In this document: piece after piece, positions 6,751-13,285 of the stretch
How the letters are laid out: every line of letters begins with the position of its first letter
Position numbering within the stretch: the first letter of the stretch is position 1
Assembly (NCBI GenBank): GCA_002723075.1
Contig: PBNJ01000021.1
Coordinates: 1 to 44,640 of the forward strand
Direction of reading: 5' to 3'
Origin: Flavobacteriaceae bacterium
Lineage (GTDB): Bacteria > Bacteroidota > Bacteroidia > Flavobacteriales > Flavobacteriaceae
DNA length: 44,640 nucleotides
Made by a program: the position numbers and the translations under genes
The notes under the pieces: model-generated
What the model saw: only the letters and a program-made list of their open reading frames with translations
What the model was told of the DNA's origin: nothing
Databases searched by the model: none

Positions 6751-6834
6751 ATGAAAATCGATCGTCCAAAATGCGGATGTGGAAACACACAAAACCCCGA
6801 TGGGTATTGTGATGGATCGCACAACAATAAATAA
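6751..6834 (+). CDS. Minimal CDGSH iron-sulfur protein (27 residues)
   Basis: A very short frame starts 4 bases after yceI and ends at TAA 6832-6834. It contains Cys8-Gly-Cys10, nine residues, then Cys20-Asp-Gly-Ser-His24. This is the 3-Cys/1-His [2Fe-2S] binding set of the CDGSH (mitoNEET-like) fold, and almost nothing else. Such clusters are pH-labile and can be transferred or act in redox sensing. The small size is typical of the single CDGSH motif found in Bacteroidota. Its position directly behind marR-yceI argues for co-expression and against a chance frame. Confidence 0.85.
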   Translation: MKIDRPKCGCGNTQNPDGYCDGSHNNK

Positions 6835-6847
6835 TTTTTCATTTGAG

Positions 6848-6878
6848 TTGTCTAGTTGACACTTGATTTATATATTTG
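6848..6878 (+). promoter_or_regulatory. trp operon promoter
   Basis: TTG (6848-6850), 20 bases, then TATATTTG (6871-6878), a perfect match to the Bacteroidota pattern. The leader-peptide ATG comes only 8 bases after the -7 box, so the trp mRNA probably has almost no sequence before the leader peptide. Confidence 0.8.
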
Positions 6879-6886
6879 ACTCGCAA

Positions 6887-6934
6887 ATGAAAAATATCAA
6901 TACTTGGTGGTTTGCACGTAACGCACAGTCGTGA
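6887..6934 (+). CDS. trpL: trp leader peptide with tandem Trp codons
   Basis: The frame encodes 15 residues, MKNINTWWFARNAQS, with consecutive TGG codons at 6905-6910 and a TGA at 6932-6934. It is followed by mutually exclusive antiterminator and terminator hairpins and then trpE. Two adjacent Trp codons in a 15-codon peptide just upstream of a trp operon are the signature of attenuation: charged tRNA-Trp lets the ribosome reach the stop codon and termination follows, while starvation stalls it at the Trp codons. No Shine-Dalgarno is visible. Confidence 0.9.
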   Translation: MKNINTWWFARNAQS

Positions 6935-6977
6935 GACACACCTCGTATATACATACCAAAGGGCTTGTCATCACGAC
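6928..6977 (+). promoter_or_regulatory. trp antiterminator pairing
   Basis: Bases 6928-6934 (GTCGTGA) pair perfectly with 6971-6977 (TCACGAC). After a one-base bulge, 6935-6938 (GACA) pairs with 6966-6969 (TGTC), for about 11 bp in total. The left arm covers the end and stop codon of the leader peptide. The right arm uses the loop and inner stem of the terminator. A ribosome at the stop codon would cover the left arm; one stalled at the Trp codons would leave it free. This gives the switch a clear mechanical logic. Confidence 0.75.
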
Positions 6978-6989
6978 AGGCCTTTTTTT
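6958..6989 (+). terminator. trp attenuator (intrinsic terminator)
   Basis: The left arm at 6958-6969 (AAAGGGCTTGTC) pairs with the right arm at 6975-6985 (GACAGGCCTTT), with one bulged G and one G-U pair, and the T run at 6983-6989 follows. It lies between the leader stop codon and trpE, 12 bases before the trpE ATG, and cannot coexist with the antiterminator stem. Confidence 0.88.
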
Positions 6990-7001: not shown

Positions 7002-8399
7002 ATGAAGTACACACTACAGACACATCATCGCAAATTGCTCGTCGATACCATGACGCCTGTCAATATGTATTTGAAAGTCAGAGACAATTTCCCAAACAGT
7101 ATTCTTTTGGAAAGTTCGGACTATGGAGTCAACGATAACAGTGTGGCCTATATCTGTTTTAATCCCATTGCGGATATCAAGCTCCAAAATCAGATGTTGT
7201 CGATGCGCTACCCCAATGGGAAATCCAAACAAATCCAACTGGCAGATAACGAGCGAGTGGCTAAGTATTGCAGTGATTTTGCCAAGCAGTTTGCAGGAAA
7301 TTTTAAATCCGAAAGATTTGTATCCAACGGCTTGTTTGGCTTTACCTCCTACGATGCTGTCCAGCATTTTGAAGACATTCAATTCTCGAAAAAAGAGGAA
7401 GATGTTCATATTCCACAAATGCATTATGCTCTTTTCCAAAACGTAATTGCCATTAATGTCTTCAACAATGAGGCCCATCTCTATGCACATTGTTATCAGA
7501 CCAAAAGCAATCTAGATGAGGTTGTTTCTGTTTTACAAGCACCAAACCCGACAACGCATTCTTTTTCACGCCAAGGTAAACCCAAGTCCAATTTGACAGA
7601 TGATGAATTTGTCGAACTTGTCAAAAAGGGAATTCATCATTGCTATCGCGGGGATGTATTTCAGATTGTGTTGTCACGACGCTTTTCCCAACCATTTGCT
7701 GGGGATGACTTTACCCTATATCGTGTTCTAAGGTCGGTAAACCCCTCCCCTTATTTATTTTATTTTGATTTTGGGGATTATCAAATTTTTGGGAGTTCTC
7801 CCGAAGCACAGTTGGTTGTTAAGGATGGGAAAGCAGAGATTCACCCGATTGCGGGTACCTTTCGTAGAACGGGGAACGACAAGCAAGATGCCGAGCGTGC
7901 TAAGGAGCTTGCAAAAGATCAAAAAGAGAATAGCGAGCATGTGATGCTCGTCGATTTGGCAAGAAACGATCTCAGTCGAAATGGCAATCAAGTGAAGGTT
8001 GAAAAAAACAGAGAAATTCAATTCTATTCCCACGTGATTCACCTTGTATCAAAGGTTACGGCAATGAAAAAAGAAAACCGAGACACCATGGAAATTGTGG
8101 CTGATACCTTTCCTGCAGGCACACTTAGTGGCGCACCCAAGCATCGAGCAATGCAGCTCATCGATGAATACGAAAATCGAAGTCGAGCTTTTTATGGGGG
8201 GGCTATTGGATTTATGGACTTTGACGGTAATTACAATCATGCCATAATCATTCGCTCTTTTTTGAGTAAAAACAATGTCTTGCACTATCAAGCTGGTGCT
8301 GGGGTGGTGTCGGAGTCTAAACCCGAAAATGAATTACAAGAAGTTTATAACAAACTGGGGGCTCTCAACAAGGCCCTAGAAGAAGCTGAAAAACTATAA
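7002..8399 (+). CDS. trpE: Anthranilate synthase component I
   Basis: The start at 7002 (MKYTLQTHHRKLL) gives 465 residues; the open frame extends upstream into the attenuator, so earlier starts are rejected. The N-terminal part has the tryptophan feedback motif (ILLESSDYG). The chorismate-binding domain shows GDVFQIVLSRRF, GSSPEAQL, IAGTFRRTGND, DQKENSEHVMLVDLARNDL, GTLSGAPKHRAMQLIDE and FYGGAIGFMDFDGNYNHAIIIRS. With TrpG it converts chorismate and glutamine to anthranilate. It is the first gene of trpEGDCFBA and is controlled by the attenuator. Confidence 0.97.
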   Translation: MKYTLQTHHRKLLVDTMTPVNMYLKVRDNFPNSILLESSDYGVNDNSVAYICFNPIADIKLQNQMLSMRYPNGKSKQIQLADNERVAKYCSDFAKQFAGNFKSERFVSNGLFGFTSYDAVQHFEDIQFSKKEEDVHIPQMHYALFQNVIAINVFNNEAHLYAHCYQTKSNLDEVVSVLQAPNPTTHSFSRQGKPKSNLTDDEFVELVKKGIHHCYRGDVFQIVLSRRFSQPFAGDDFTLYRVLRSVNPSPYLFYFDFGDYQIFGSSPEAQLVVKDGKAEIHPIAGTFRRTGNDKQDAERAKELAKDQKENSEHVMLVDLARNDLSRNGNQVKVEKNREIQFYSHVIHLVSKVTAMKKENRDTMEIVADTFPAGTLSGAPKHRAMQLIDEYENRSRAFYGGAIGFMDFDGNYNHAIIIRSFLSKNNVLHYQAGAGVVSESKPENELQEVYNKLGALNKALEEAEKL

Positions 8400-8401
8400 C
8401 T

Positions 8402-8962
8402 ATGCACATACTTGTCATTGATAATTACGATTCTTTTACCTATAATTTGGTGCATTATCTCGAAGATCTAGATTGTGAGGTGGCCGTAAAACGAAACGAT
8501 CAACTGACTATCGAAGAGGTGGCAGATTATGATAAAATTGTACTGTCACCTGGTCCAGGGATTCCAGACGAAGCAGGACTGTTAAAACCCATCATCGCCG
8601 CCTATGCCAAAACAAAGCCAATTTTTGGAGTTTGCTTGGGGCATCAAGCTATCGGAGAGGTCTTTGGTGGTACCTTGACCAACCTCGATAAGGTCTATCA
8701 TGGAGTAGCAACCCCCATTCAAGTTCTTGTCAATGACCCACTTTTTGAGGGCTTGGGTGAGCAATTTGAAGTTGGACGTTATCACTCTTGGGTAGTCGAA
8801 AAGCCCCTGCCTGATCAGCTTGTCCTTTTGGCAGAGGAAAACCATGGGCAAGTGATGGCGATGAAACATAAAGTGTACGATGTTTATGGCGTTCAATTTC
8901 ACCCCGAGTCCATTTTAAGCCCCGAGGGAAAACAACTGTTGAACAACTGGATAAGGATGTAA
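8402..8962 (+). CDS. trpG: Anthranilate synthase component II (glutamine amidotransferase)
   Basis: The 186-residue class I amidotransferase begins MHILVIDNYDSFTYNLVHYL. It has the nucleophile Cys78 in FGVCLGHQAIGEVFGG and the His167/Glu169 pair in VQFHPESILS. It releases ammonia from glutamine for TrpE. It starts 2 bases after trpE. In some bacteria the same subunit also serves PabB, and no separate pabA is seen in this window. It is stand-alone here, not fused to trpD as in enteric bacteria. Confidence 0.97.
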   Translation: MHILVIDNYDSFTYNLVHYLEDLDCEVAVKRNDQLTIEEVADYDKIVLSPGPGIPDEAGLLKPIIAAYAKTKPIFGVCLGHQAIGEVFGGTLTNLDKVYHGVATPIQVLVNDPLFEGLGEQFEVGRYHSWVVEKPLPDQLVLLAEENHGQVMAMKHKVYDVYGVQFHPESILSPEGKQLLNNWIRM

Positions 8963-8963
8963 A

Positions 8964-9959
8964 ATGAAAGTGATATTAGAAAAACGAATCCAAAACCAAA
9001 GCTTGACAAAAGACGAGGCTAAAAACACCTTGCTTGATATTGGGCAAGGGAAATGCAATTCGTATCAAGTGGCAGCATTTTTAACCACCTACATGATGCG
9101 CCCAATTACGGTCGACGAGCTTTCTGGTTTTCGTGCTGCTCTTCTCGACCTTTGTATTGCCATTGACTTGTCGGACTATGATCCGATTGACCTCTGTGGC
9201 ACCGGCGGAGACGGAAAAGACACTTTTAATATCTCGACGCTTGCCTCTTTTGTGACGGCTGGTGCTGGGGTCGCTGTGGCAAAACACGGAAACTACGGTG
9301 TTTCTTCTTCCTGTGGATCGAGTAATGTGATGGAACACTTGGGTATTCGATTTTCGAATGAACAAGACTTTTTGCAAAACTGCATTGAAAAGGCAGGAAT
9401 TTGTGTTCTTCATGCACCTTTATTTCACCCCGCTATGAAGCATGTTGCTCCCATTCGACGTGATCTGGGGCTGAAAACCTTTTTTAATATGCTCGGACCA
9501 CTCGTGAATCCCTCCAAGCCCAACAAACAAATGGTGGGCGTATTTAACCAAGAACTTCAACGGATTTATCGCTATGTCTTGGAAGAGACCAACCAACAAT
9601 ACAGTATACTCCATGCCTTAGACGGCTATGATGAAATCTCTCTCACCAGCGATACAAAGGTGATATCAAACAGTGGAACTGCCACAATTAACTCAGCCAG
9701 CTTTGGCTTGAAAAAACTGGAACCTTCACAAATTGGGGGTGGTGACTCGGTAGATGCTGCTGCTGCTATTTTTACAGCCGTACTGGAAGGCAAAAGTACC
9801 GATGCACAAAAACAAGTAGTTTGTGCCAACGCAGCTATCGCAATCGCCACTGCCAAAGCATGTAGTAGTCAAGAGGGCTATGCCTATGCCACGGAATCCA
9901 TCGACTCGGGCAAAGCACTTCAAGCACTAAAAACCCTCCAACAACTCAGCGCAAAATGA
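8964..9959 (+). CDS. trpD: Anthranilate phosphoribosyltransferase
   Basis: The 331-residue protein shows the PRPP-binding loop CGTGGDGKDTFNIST (about 78-92), KHGNYGVSSSCGSSNVME (107-124) and FNMLGPLVNPSKPNKQMVGV. It transfers the phosphoribosyl group from PRPP to anthranilate. It begins 1 base after the trpG stop codon and its last bases overlap the trpC start (ATGA at 9956-9959), so translation is probably coupled. Confidence 0.97.
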   Translation: MKVILEKRIQNQSLTKDEAKNTLLDIGQGKCNSYQVAAFLTTYMMRPITVDELSGFRAALLDLCIAIDLSDYDPIDLCGTGGDGKDTFNISTLASFVTAGAGVAVAKHGNYGVSSSCGSSNVMEHLGIRFSNEQDFLQNCIEKAGICVLHAPLFHPAMKHVAPIRRDLGLKTFFNMLGPLVNPSKPNKQMVGVFNQELQRIYRYVLEETNQQYSILHALDGYDEISLTSDTKVISNSGTATINSASFGLKKLEPSQIGGGDSVDAAAAIFTAVLEGKSTDAQKQVVCANAAIAIATAKACSSQEGYAYATESIDSGKALQALKTLQQLSAK

Positions 9960-10738
9960 ATATCCTTCAACAGATTGTAGCGGACATTCAAAAGGATTTG
10001 ATCTTAAAAAAACAAATTGTTTCAATTCGCGCACTCGAAACAGGTCCATTTTTTGAGCGACAAACCATTTCGCTCAGTCAGCGTATTGTCAATACAGATG
10101 GAATTATCGCAGAGCACAAACGTCGTTCGCCATCTAAACCAAACATCAATTTTGGTCTTCGGCTGGCCGATGTCGCACAGGGCTATGAGTCGGCTGGTGT
10201 GGCAGGGATGTCCGTGCTGACCAACAACCAGTACTTTGGTGGTTCACTCGAAGACTTACTTCTTGCACGTCAGGCTTGCGAACTTCCCCTATTGCGAAAA
10301 GAATTTATGGTCGACGAATACCAAGTATTAGAAGCCAAGGCCAATGGGGCGGATGCGATTTTACTCATCGCTGCTTGTTTAGAAAGGCAAGATATTCAAA
10401 CCCTTTCAAAGCTGGCACAACAACTCGGAATGGAGGTCTTACTGGAGGTTCACAATGCAGATGAATTAGAAAAATCCATTATGTCATCTATCGATATGAT
10501 CGGGGTAAACAACAGAGATCTCAAAAGCTTTACGGTCAGTCTGGAGACAAGTAAGTCTTTGGTCGAACAAATTCCTGCCGAATTCGTCAAGCTATCGGAA
10601 AGCGGACTCTCCACCTCTGAAAGTGTTCTTGAATTACGGGGCTGTGGCTACCAAGGATTTTTGATGGGCGAGCACTTTATGAAAACAGACGACCCTGGAG
10701 CATCGGCTCAAAACTTTATCAAATCACTCGCCAAATGA
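9956..10738 (+). CDS. trpC: Indole-3-glycerol phosphate synthase
   Basis: The 260-residue TIM barrel has the family signature IIAEHKRRSPSKPNIN with Glu53 and Lys55, then VLTNNQYFGGSLEDL, PLLRKEFMVDEYQVLEA, GVNNRDLKSF and KLSESGLST. It closes the indole ring from carboxyphenylaminodeoxyribulose phosphate. It is separate from trpF, unlike the enteric fusion. It overlaps trpD and trpF by 4 bases each. Confidence 0.97.
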   Translation: MNILQQIVADIQKDLILKKQIVSIRALETGPFFERQTISLSQRIVNTDGIIAEHKRRSPSKPNINFGLRLADVAQGYESAGVAGMSVLTNNQYFGGSLEDLLLARQACELPLLRKEFMVDEYQVLEAKANGADAILLIAACLERQDIQTLSKLAQQLGMEVLLEVHNADELEKSIMSSIDMIGVNNRDLKSFTVSLETSKSLVEQIPAEFVKLSESGLSTSESVLELRGCGYQGFLMGEHFMKTDDPGASAQNFIKSLAK

Positions 10739-11346
10739 AACTCAAAGTTTGTGGCATGCAGGAAACAGAGAATATAGCGGCTTTGGCAAGTCTCCAACCT
10801 GACTATATGGGCTTTATCTTTTGGGAGCCCTCCAAACGATATTGTACAACTGTTCCAACAGATATCCCCAAACACATTAAAAAAGTAGGGGTCTTTGTCG
10901 ACGAAACAACAAAGCAGATCAAAGAAAAAGTTAAATTATTTGGACTTGATGCCGTTCAACTCCACGGCGACGAAATCCCGCGTCAATGCGCTGCCTTATT
11001 AAACTTATGCGAAGTGATTAAGGCCTTTCGGATTGGTCCTGATTTTGACTTTAAAACCCTCACCCCCTATCAAGACCATTGTACCTATTTCTTGTTTGAC
11101 ACCCAAGGTCCACTCCCTGGTGGGAATGGCACCACTTTTGACTGGAAACTCCTGGCGGGATACACCTTAGACACACCATTTTTTCTCAGTGGGGGCATCG
11201 GTCTAGGTCATGTGGAGGCAATTGCCGAAATTCGCAAACGCAATCTGCCAATCCATGCATTGGACATCAACAGCCTATTTGAAAGTAAGCCAGGCGTAAA
11301 AAAAATTGAAAAAATTGAAAAGTTTAAACAACTTGCACAGCTATGA
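10735..11346 (+). CDS. trpF: Phosphoribosylanthranilate isomerase
   Basis: The 203-residue TIM barrel starts MKLKVCGMQETENI, giving the catalytic Cys5. It continues with YMGFIFWEPSKRY, VGVFVDE, AVQLHGDE, FLLFDTQGPLPGGNGTTFDW and FLSGGIGLGHV. The catalytic Asp is in the FDTQ motif. It catalyses the Amadori rearrangement before TrpC. It starts inside the trpC stop (ATGA, 10735-10738) and overlaps trpB the same way. Confidence 0.96.
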   Translation: MKLKVCGMQETENIAALASLQPDYMGFIFWEPSKRYCTTVPTDIPKHIKKVGVFVDETTKQIKEKVKLFGLDAVQLHGDEIPRQCAALLNLCEVIKAFRIGPDFDFKTLTPYQDHCTYFLFDTQGPLPGGNGTTFDWKLLAGYTLDTPFFLSGGIGLGHVEAIAEIRKRNLPIHALDINSLFESKPGVKKIEKIEKFKQLAQL

Positions 11347-12524
11347 GTTATCATGTAAATGAAAAAGGGTATTATGGAGATTTCGGAGGGGCATATATAC
11401 CTGAAATGCTATATCCCAATGTAGAGGAATTGAGACAAAATTATTTGGAGATTACAGCACAAGCGGATTTCAAATCTGAATTCGACCAACTCCTACGCGA
11501 TTATGTCGGTCGGCCAACACCTCTTTACTATGCGTCTCGCTTATCGGAGAAATACAACACCAAGATATACTTGAAACGAGAGGATCTTTGTCATACTGGC
11601 GCCCACAAAATCAACAATACCATTGGGCAAATCTTATTGGCCAAGCGATTGGGTAAAAATCGTATCATTGCCGAGACTGGCGCAGGCCAACATGGAGTTG
11701 CTACAGCAACGGTCTGCGCACTTATGGGGATTCAATGTGTGGTGTACATGGGCGAATTGGATATCAAACGCCAAGCACCCAATGTGGCACGAATGAAAAT
11801 GCTGGGCGCAGAAGTACGCTCCGCACAATCGGGTAGTAAAACGCTCAAAGATGCGACCAACGAAGCGATCCGCGATTGGATTAACAATCCTGTTGATACC
11901 CATTATATTATCGGATCTGTTGTAGGACCACACCCCTATCCAGATATGGTTGCTCGTTTTCAAGCAGTCATCAGTGAGGAGTGTAAAAGTCAACTCCTAG
12001 AAGCAGAAGGTCGTGACTACCCCGATCATGTGATTGCCTGTGTAGGTGGTGGTAGCAATGCTGCTGGTTTGTATTATCATTATCTCGATGACAAACGCGT
12101 AAACATCATCGCGGTTGAAGCGGCTGGAAAAGGAATTGATTCAGGAGAAAGTGCAGCCACCTCAGCCCTCGGAAAAGAAGGAATCATACACGGGAGTAAA
12201 ACCCTGTTGATGCAAACTGAAGACGGGCAGATTACCGAACCCTACTCCATTTCAGCTGGACTCGATTATCCAGGAGTGGGTCCAATGCATGCTCACTTAT
12301 ATAGATCCAAGCGCGCGGAATTTATTTCGATCCCCGATCAAGAAGCCATGGATTGGGGTCTCACCTTATCCCAAACGGAAGGAATTATCCCTGCGATTGA
12401 AACCGCACATGCTTTTGCTGTTTTAGATGAGAGAGCTTTTGAGTCTGATGAGATTGTATTGTTTAATTGCTCTGGTCGAGGTGACAAAGACCTGGAAACT
12501 TACATTGATTATTTTAAATTGTAA
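11343..12524 (+). CDS. trpB: Tryptophan synthase beta subunit
   Basis: The 393-residue protein carries the PLP site HTGAHKINN with Lys89, KREDLCHTG, ETGAGQHGVATATVCAL, the phosphate-binding GGGSNAAG, and the closing FNCSGRGDKD. It is the TrpB1 type that partners TrpA. It condenses channelled indole with serine. The gene overlaps trpF by 4 bases and its stop overlaps the trpA ATG by one base (TAATG). Confidence 0.97.
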   Translation: MSYHVNEKGYYGDFGGAYIPEMLYPNVEELRQNYLEITAQADFKSEFDQLLRDYVGRPTPLYYASRLSEKYNTKIYLKREDLCHTGAHKINNTIGQILLAKRLGKNRIIAETGAGQHGVATATVCALMGIQCVVYMGELDIKRQAPNVARMKMLGAEVRSAQSGSKTLKDATNEAIRDWINNPVDTHYIIGSVVGPHPYPDMVARFQAVISEECKSQLLEAEGRDYPDHVIACVGGGSNAAGLYYHYLDDKRVNIIAVEAAGKGIDSGESAATSALGKEGIIHGSKTLLMQTEDGQITEPYSISAGLDYPGVGPMHAHLYRSKRAEFISIPDQEAMDWGLTLSQTEGIIPAIETAHAFAVLDERAFESDEIVLFNCSGRGDKDLETYIDYFKL

Positions 12525-13285
12525 TGAATCGAATCAACCAAACGCTAAACCAAGACAAAAAGCTATTGTCTATCTACTTCACAGCGGGCTTTCCCCAGCT
12601 TGAGGATACTGTACCAATTTTGGAGCAATTGCAAGAAGCAGATGTAGATATGATCGAATTGGGACTCCCGTTTTCCGATCCGCTTGCCGATGGTCCTACC
12701 ATACAGGAAAGCTCTACCCAAGCCCTGCGTAATGGAATGACCACCGACAAACTCTTTACCCAACTCGAAGGCATTCGTGCTCGCATTCACGTTCCTTTGA
12801 TTGTGATGGGATATTTTAATCCTATGATGCAGTATGGGGTTGAGCGCTTTTGCAAACGATGCCAAGAAGTGGGTATCGACGGGCTTATCATCCCAGACCT
12901 CCCGGCAGATGTCTATCACACTCAATACCAAAGCTTATTCCAGCAATATGGGTTGCTCAATATGTTTTTGATTACACCCCAAACCCCTGATGAACGCATT
13001 CGTTATATCGACCAAGTATCAGAAGGTTTTATCTATATGGTCTCGAGCGCAGCAACCACTGGTGCACAAAGGAGTTTTGGAGATACCCAACAACACTATT
13101 TTCAACGAATCGCTGACATGAAACTCCAATCCAAACTCCTTGTCGGATTTGGAATCAGCAATGCAGAAACTTATCAATCAGCAGTAGCCCATAGCCAAGG
13201 TGCGATTATTGGCTCGGCTTTTATCAAGCACTTGGAAGCAAATGGCAACCAAAGCGTGCAAGCATTTGTCAAGACCATTCGATAG
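12524..13285 (+). CDS. trpA: Tryptophan synthase alpha subunit
   Basis: The 253-residue TIM barrel contains MIELGLPFSDPLADGPTIQ with the catalytic pair Glu45 and Asp56. Also visible are VIMGYFNPMMQYG, GLIIPDLP, FLITPQTPDERI, YMVSSAATTGAQ and LVGFGISNAE. It cleaves indole-3-glycerol phosphate to indole and passes it to TrpB. It is the last gene of the operon. I see no convincing terminator after it; a short signal-peptide-like frame and the convergent yaaA follow. Confidence 0.97.
   Translation: MNRINQTLNQDKKLLSIYFTAGFPQLEDTVPILEQLQEADVDMIELGLPFSDPLADGPTIQESSTQALRNGMTTDKLFTQLEGIRARIHVPLIVMGYFNPMMQYGVERFCKRCQEVGIDGLIIPDLPADVYHTQYQSLFQQYGLLNMFLITPQTPDERIRYIDQVSEGFIYMVSSAATTGAQRSFGDTQQHYFQRIADMKLQSKLLVGFGISNAETYQSAVAHSQGAIIGSAFIKHLEANGNQSVQAFVKTIR

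Follow-up and report, generated by a model that had tools for sequence, protein, structure and literature searches.

What controls the trp genes of this flavobacterium is the question raised by the short interval in front of its trpE. The window, meaning the whole 44,640 nt stretch of DNA that was analysed, is contig C21 of a source genome of 1.69 Mb that is 84.67% complete. All coordinates given for it are on the plus strand. The closest records with the same trpE are Flavobacteriaceae or Bacteroidetes assemblies, with 95-97% protein identity. The gene for anthranilate synthase component I, trpE (7002..8399), matches Pfam PF00425 and PF04715 above cut-off; its best NCBIfam match is TIGR00564, yet this falls under that model's cut-off. 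It is followed by trpG, trpD, trpC, trpF, trpB and trpA (8402..13285), tight or overlapping and recognized from their ORFs and Pfam, so that the order after the leader is trpEGDCFBA with little or no spacing. Three of these match only general Pfam families, trpG GATase, trpD glycosyltransferase-3 and trpB PALP, and their names therefore lean also on gene order and context. Directly upstream of the leader region is a short ORF, MKIDRPKCGCGNTQNPDGYCDGSHNNK (6751-6834), which we take to resemble a CDGSH iron-sulfur motif; no Pfam match was found for it, submitted without its Met.

The leader peptide gene, trpL (6887..6934), is supported by the sequence, its ORF and its relatives. It encodes MKNINTWWFARNAQS, beginning with the ATG at 6887 and running for 15 codons to a TGA stop at 6932-6934. 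It contains the tandem regulatory Trp codons TGG TGG (6905..6910), so the leader of this length with tandem TGG that a first-pass annotation had described is correct to the base. The -7 promoter box, TATATTTG (6871..6878), is an exact TAnnTTTG and ends 8 nt before the trpL ATG. A TTG at 6848..6850 is a possible, weak -33 element, its position fitting the -33/-7 layout of Bacteroidetes promoters given in the available part of PMC6847099. The same text puts the distance from box to start at 4-5 nt for many F. johnsoniae promoters, and on this spacing the leader RNA is predicted to start at 6883..6884, with a near-leaderless 5' UTR of 3-4 nt.

Between trpL and trpE is an intrinsic terminator (6958..6989), in which 6958-6969 pairs with 6975-6986 and a T-run occupies 6983-6989. 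Folding bears out this terminator (z -5.1, with 0 of 200 shuffles as good), and the 111-nt leader as a whole also folds better than its shuffles (z -4.2, 0 of 200). The alternative stem is as the first-pass annotation gave it. The left arm of this antiterminator (6928..6938) forms 11 pairs, with one bulged base, with a right arm inside the terminator (6966..6977), including TCGTGA with TCACGA. The segment folds with z -4.1 (1 of 200 shuffles as good) and the duplex has an energy of -20.0 kcal/mol (z -4.5, matched by none of 300 shuffled left segments). Both arms are supported by folding and by relatives. The left arm covers the leader stop codon in the window, as had been claimed, but it does not do so in three of the relatives described below (L013, L072 and L073).

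The lowest-energy fold of the window also contains a predicted 1:2 helix (6900..6948), pairing 6900-6922 with 6928-6948, for which the support is mixed. It has an energy of -16.6 kcal/mol (p 0.04) and overlaps the consensus helix of the Rfam family Bacteroid-trp (RF01692), with many non-standard pairs against that model. With this helix in the fold, the proposal that two short stems do the work, in a design simpler than the classical four segments, is not established. The two-stem reading may hold for this clade, where the antiterminator outcompetes the 1:2 helix before the right arm of the terminator is made.

The conservation of these parts was assessed in 75 distinct trpE upstream regions: the window, 44 from titled records and 30 further relatives. 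There were 46 titled records, of which L032 and L035 were dropped as having no upstream DNA; L052-L060 are duplicates of L004-L012 and were left uncounted. By rule, a short ORF with W.?W is present upstream of trpE in all 75 loci, whereas 20 dinucleotide shuffles give a mean of 2.55 and a maximum of 6, and the opposite strand has 1. The rule match in L010 is a spurious overlap, the real leader there being MKNINTWSSARNAHS with a single Trp codon, and a tandem or near-tandem Trp leader thus precedes trpE in 74 of the 75 Bacteroidota loci. Three Trp codons in a row are found in 56 loci, WW in 14 and WLW in 3; of the last two, one has four Trp codons and the other a single one. Among the leaders of the genus, 9 of 10 have WW and the tenth is L010 (DJCM01000012.1). 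The second Trp codon of L010 reads TCG and its promoter box is altered to TATATTTA, making it either a decaying leader or an assembly error. In 58 of the 75 loci an exact TAnnTTTG box is no more than 60 nt from the leader start (shuffle mean 7.3, maximum 12).

Terminators were counted in 75 of 75 loci by rule alone, and in 65 of the 67 loci to which a stricter T-run rule was applied, L048 and L075 being missed. In 59 of the 75 loci the antiterminator outdoes shuffles of its left arm at p<0.05; of the 16 that do not reach this level, L080 shows nothing. Within the 10 genus leaders, 94.6% of antiterminator cells are paired, with one double change in 13 pairs; 44 of 500 shuffles do as well, and sliding by one column yields two. 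Since these controls match or exceed it, covariation in the genus alone would not prove the antiterminator. The terminator has 98.3% of cells paired in the same leaders and no double change. For the 1:2 helix, 90.0% of cells in the genus are paired, with one double change, and a two-column slide covaries more; the helix reaches significance in 35 of the 75 loci, of which 3 are among the 10 of the genus, and the fold of L004 lacks it. Relatives thus retain both the WW peptide and the stems, which was the check that the first-pass annotation had proposed.

The pairing of each left arm with its own terminator was evaluated in 14 mutually dissimilar loci, setting each terminator against its own and foreign left arms. 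The own arm ranks first in 8 of 14 loci and in the top tenth in 10 (Wilcoxon p 0.0006). The exceptions are L064, in which it is worse than the average foreign arm, L086, in which it is about equal, and L039, in which it is only slightly better. Some of the arm pairs can be recognized by eye, such as CGTAATC with GATTACG in L036 and GGGTGAGTC with GATTCACTC in L042.

The response of the fold to the ribosome was modelled in the window by masking, such that only RNA beyond a chosen base, representing the ribosome edge, was allowed to fold. With the first free base at 6917-6923, corresponding to a ribosome on the Trp codons, the antiterminator reaches 0.74-0.83. The state is mixed at 6926-6928, and from 6930 onward, corresponding to a ribosome at the stop, the terminator reaches 0.97. 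The two states are those that the first-pass annotation had assigned to the two ribosome positions. When nothing is masked, the full-length RNA has the 1:2 helix at 0.98 and the terminator at 0.96; with the polymerase only at 6978, the antiterminator is at 0.99.

Across loci, the ribosome edge was placed 13 nt past the first base of the A-site codon, a distance that reflects the ribosome footprint. At full-length equilibrium a switch is seen in 8 of the 75 loci, the window included, against 0.1 in shuffles. In the remaining 67 the terminator wins even with a stalled ribosome, and these loci therefore need co-transcriptional timing. Such indifference to the ribosome is what would be expected if the hairpin did no more than terminate a short RNA or the upstream genes constitutively, with the Trp peptide a coincidence. 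It is very improbable that this is so: the hairpin has its own promoter box and leader peptide, the latter present in all but one of the loci, and in most of the 14 dissimilar loci the antiterminator fits the local terminator better than foreign ones.

The truncated-transcript test, run after the full-length test, cut the RNA four bases into the right arm of the terminator. In this form 62 of the 75 loci switch, compared with 10.3 (maximum 17) in shuffles, and 13 fail. Set against the 8 that switch at full length, this suggests that the switch would be mostly kinetic and that the antiterminator would have to form first, as expected of attenuators. When the truncated test is run with no ribosome, 33 of the 75 loci have an antiterminator signal below 0.25 and 24 have one above 0.5. 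In 9 of the 10 genus leaders the signal is 0.73-0.76, which makes it ambiguous what state this clade adopts in the absence of a ribosome. What was found by computation is a leader with codons for the product of the operon, an intrinsic terminator before the first gene, and an antiterminator exclusive with it whose left arm is masked only by a ribosome at the stop. The proposal of ribosome-mediated attenuation is supported, the fold depending on the position of the ribosome and the peptide and stems being retained in relatives.

A different sensor of tryptophan, such as an RNA-binding protein, a repressor or a T-box, would make the ribosome unnecessary. Searches for genes and RNA families returned no point in its favour, with no match to TrpR or TRAP in the source genome (which is incomplete, as given above) and no T-box match in the window at the gathering threshold. 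The repeated codon of the leader also changes with the pathway. Such a sensor is judged very improbable. In the source genome, hisG (L081, G000:C8) is preceded by the leader MKKNTHIHHLFALSQTS and a prephenate dehydratase gene (L082, G000:C7) by MNNTFYYYNAFYTSQTEQGDL, each followed by an inverted repeat, identified by eye, and a T-run. Like the trp leader, these two start 8 nt after a box or near-box, the his box being GATATTTG, an inexact match to TAnnTTTG. No clear leader was seen by eye in the ilvD upstream region (L083). In relatives, His-rich leaders precede hisG in 26 of 27 loci, counted by rule without shuffles. Phe/Tyr-rich leaders precede the prephenate dehydratase gene in 29 of 30 loci by the same kind of rule and in 26 of 30 after L122, L136 and L139 were set aside by eye. 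That the codon tracks the pathway, in these leaders and in the lysine leaders below, was counted in favour of ribosome-mediated attenuation. Leader-peptide clues before amino-acid operons, and conserved structured 5' elements of pheA and hisG, are described for F. psychrophilum in PMC9723704, section 19 of which names no antiterminators, codon counts or lysine version.

The lysine version came from the search of 60 genomes with RF01692. In G034 there is a match of 38.9 bits, under the cut-off, at L169:2516-2625 on the minus strand, before an aspartate kinase gene and lysA; for trpE this genome has no good match (best E 5.6e-17). The leader ORF at this site is LKLINILNKKDKKVHLRRTS. A second lysine leader, VLNIFKQKDKKIYLRRMS, precedes an aspartate kinase gene in G124 (L172, G124:C258). 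The Trp leader L074, used as the reference for both, ends WWWKHLRRSS. Measured from the regulatory codons as far as the terminator, the two lysine leaders share 82% and 81% identity with L074, compared with a mean of 67% and a maximum of 84% among 15 chosen flavobacterial trp leaders and up to 62% for a shuffled lysine leader. In the truncated test both behave as switches, at 0.73 and 0.66 with the ribosome stalled and 0.01 with it at the stop. An aspartate kinase match is present in 119 of 120 genomes; the best 30 loci were read for Lys leaders and 2 have the Lys cassette, while L176 has a Lys-rich ORF without the cassette. It is likely, on this likeness, that the Bacteroid-trp attenuator is a re-codable cassette, with Lys in place of Trp before aspartate kinase in two genomes of the same family. 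Some caution is warranted because the start codons are TTG and GTG rather than ATG and because two loci are known. No report of a lysine version was found in the literature searched, at the level of listings.

The Bacteroid-trp motif is listed in a table of Weinberg et al. 2010 (PMC2864571), and the accessible part of PMC6414381 states that the trp operon of F. psychrophilum has this element conserved upstream of it, and draws a comparison with the Trp leader of E. coli. Rfam describes RF01692 as a tryptophan peptide leader. At the site, RF01692 scores 33.2 bits against a gathering cut-off of 49 (E 0.019 in 181 nt), and because of this shortfall the site is called a divergent relative rather than a member by score. 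In the source genome as a whole the site is the better of two matches (33.2 bits, E 0.044). With strict filters, the cut-off is reached in none of the 13 genomes of the genus and in 15 of the 60 genomes searched; in a separate scan it is reached in 3 of 20 loci. A short ORF with at least two Trp codons is a feature of the family. Common to the family and the site are this ORF, the phylum Bacteroidota, the position directly upstream of the trp genes, and a terminator that starts with GGCUUGUC. A helix around the Trp codons, as in the consensus, is predicted here with the mixed support described above. The window differs in having two Trp codons, where exactly three in a row are present in most of the loci. 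The RF01692 consensus ends in the left arm of the terminator, and the terminator and antiterminator are outside the model. Taken with the folding results, the site is in all likelihood a ribosome-mediated trp attenuator and a divergent relative of the Bacteroid-trp family.

Two tandem Trp leaders precede trpE in L086 and L090, of family f2, and in L031 and L033 (Prolixibacteraceae, Draconibacterium). A terminator-like repeat is visible by eye between the two leaders in L031 and L033. Both tandem leaders of L090 (genome G037) and of L086 (genome G052) match RF01692 under the cut-off.

The classical attenuator is that of E. coli trpL, with tandem Trp codons and alternative 1:2, 2:3 and 3:4 pairings. 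The site resembles it in the tandem codons, the alternative pairings and the intrinsic terminator before the structural genes. It differs from E. coli trpL in having no Shine-Dalgarno sequence, a probably near-leaderless transcript and a phylum-specific promoter, and in that no TrpR was found. In Sinorhizobium meliloti, according to the available text of PMC7298713, the leader RNA of trpL (rnTrpL) starts at the ATG, compared with a predicted start near the ATG here, and attenuation operates without transcriptional repression, as the lack of a TrpR match would allow here. The two belong to unrelated phyla, and functions in trans are reported there but none are known here. The terminated leader RNA or peptide could nonetheless also act in trans, as rnTrpL and peTrpL do (PMC7298713), given that the terminated RNA would be about 100 nt, starting near the AUG, in the same layout. 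This is improbable, as the peptide varies among relatives outside its Trp codons and the leader RNA has no known targets.

The first-pass annotation had also drawn attention to the missing Shine-Dalgarno sequence and to the gap of 8 bases from the promoter. Both observations hold in the window, but neither is a special trait, being ordinary in the genome or the phylum. The absence of a Shine-Dalgarno is normal in Bacteroidetes (PMC6847099, part). A recognizable box, [TC]AnnTTTG, precedes 62 of the 75 trp leaders under an in-frame ATG rule, and 13 are without one; a first-ATG ORF rule gave no box in L015, L066 and L067, and the in-frame rule was used. The distance from box to ATG in the 62 is 3-9 nt in 32, 10-15 nt in 10 and 16-21 nt in 20. 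In 443 kb of the source genome (the window and L149-L168), a box within 60 nt is found for 76 predicted genes, and in 23 of them the gap is 3-9 nt; a looser start rule gives 26 of 80, and in shuffled upstream DNA a box is found in 11 genes. A leaderless start special to attenuators was therefore rejected, and the short gap looks like a habit of the genome and not of the attenuator. The spacing in the 443 kb is bimodal, with a group at 3-9 nt, none at 10-12 nt and the rest at 13 nt or more. This suggests two modes of initiation, with near-leaderless mRNAs frequent. Published values use measures that differ from the box spacing used here: leaderless mRNAs are 5.5% in F. psychrophilum (PMC9723704), 5' UTRs below 10 nt are about 3.7% in B. 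thetaiotaomicron (PMC7366714), and in F. johnsoniae 87% of transcripts with a probable promoter exceed 10 nt (PMC6847099), each as stated in the part of the article available. No report of leaderless leader peptides in Bacteroidetes was found in the literature searched, as far as its accessible text goes.

The evidence throughout is computational. The computations give directly the parts of the attenuator, how far they are conserved and how the fold depends on where the ribosome stands, and we infer the start site, stalling, timing and regulation as follows. RNA polymerase would start about 3-4 bases upstream of the leader ATG. With ample tryptophan, the ribosome would pass both Trp codons to the stop at 6932 and cover 6928-6938; the terminator at 6958-6986 would then form and transcription would end before trpE. 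A shortage of charged tRNA-Trp would make the ribosome stall on 6905-6910 and leave 6928-6938 free to pair with 6966-6977 before the right arm of the terminator is made, and the polymerase would continue into trpEGDCFBA. The leader switch thus very probably turns the trp genes on when tryptophan is short.

This kind of switch is already listed for the phylum, and the site is a real, divergent example of it. The Rfam model RF01692 misses the genus by score, and the terminator and antiterminator that are absent from the model are now supplied. The lysine version, if confirmed, would be a natural test of codon-specific stalling, a codon-swap experiment run by nature that would show ribosome stalling to set specificity. 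The findings indicate that a flavobacterium with a small genome keeps classical-looking attenuation at trp, and probably likewise at his and phe. The phylum lacks Shine-Dalgarno sequences and the transcript here is probably near-leaderless, so control by ribosome stalling would need neither a Shine-Dalgarno nor a long 5' leader.
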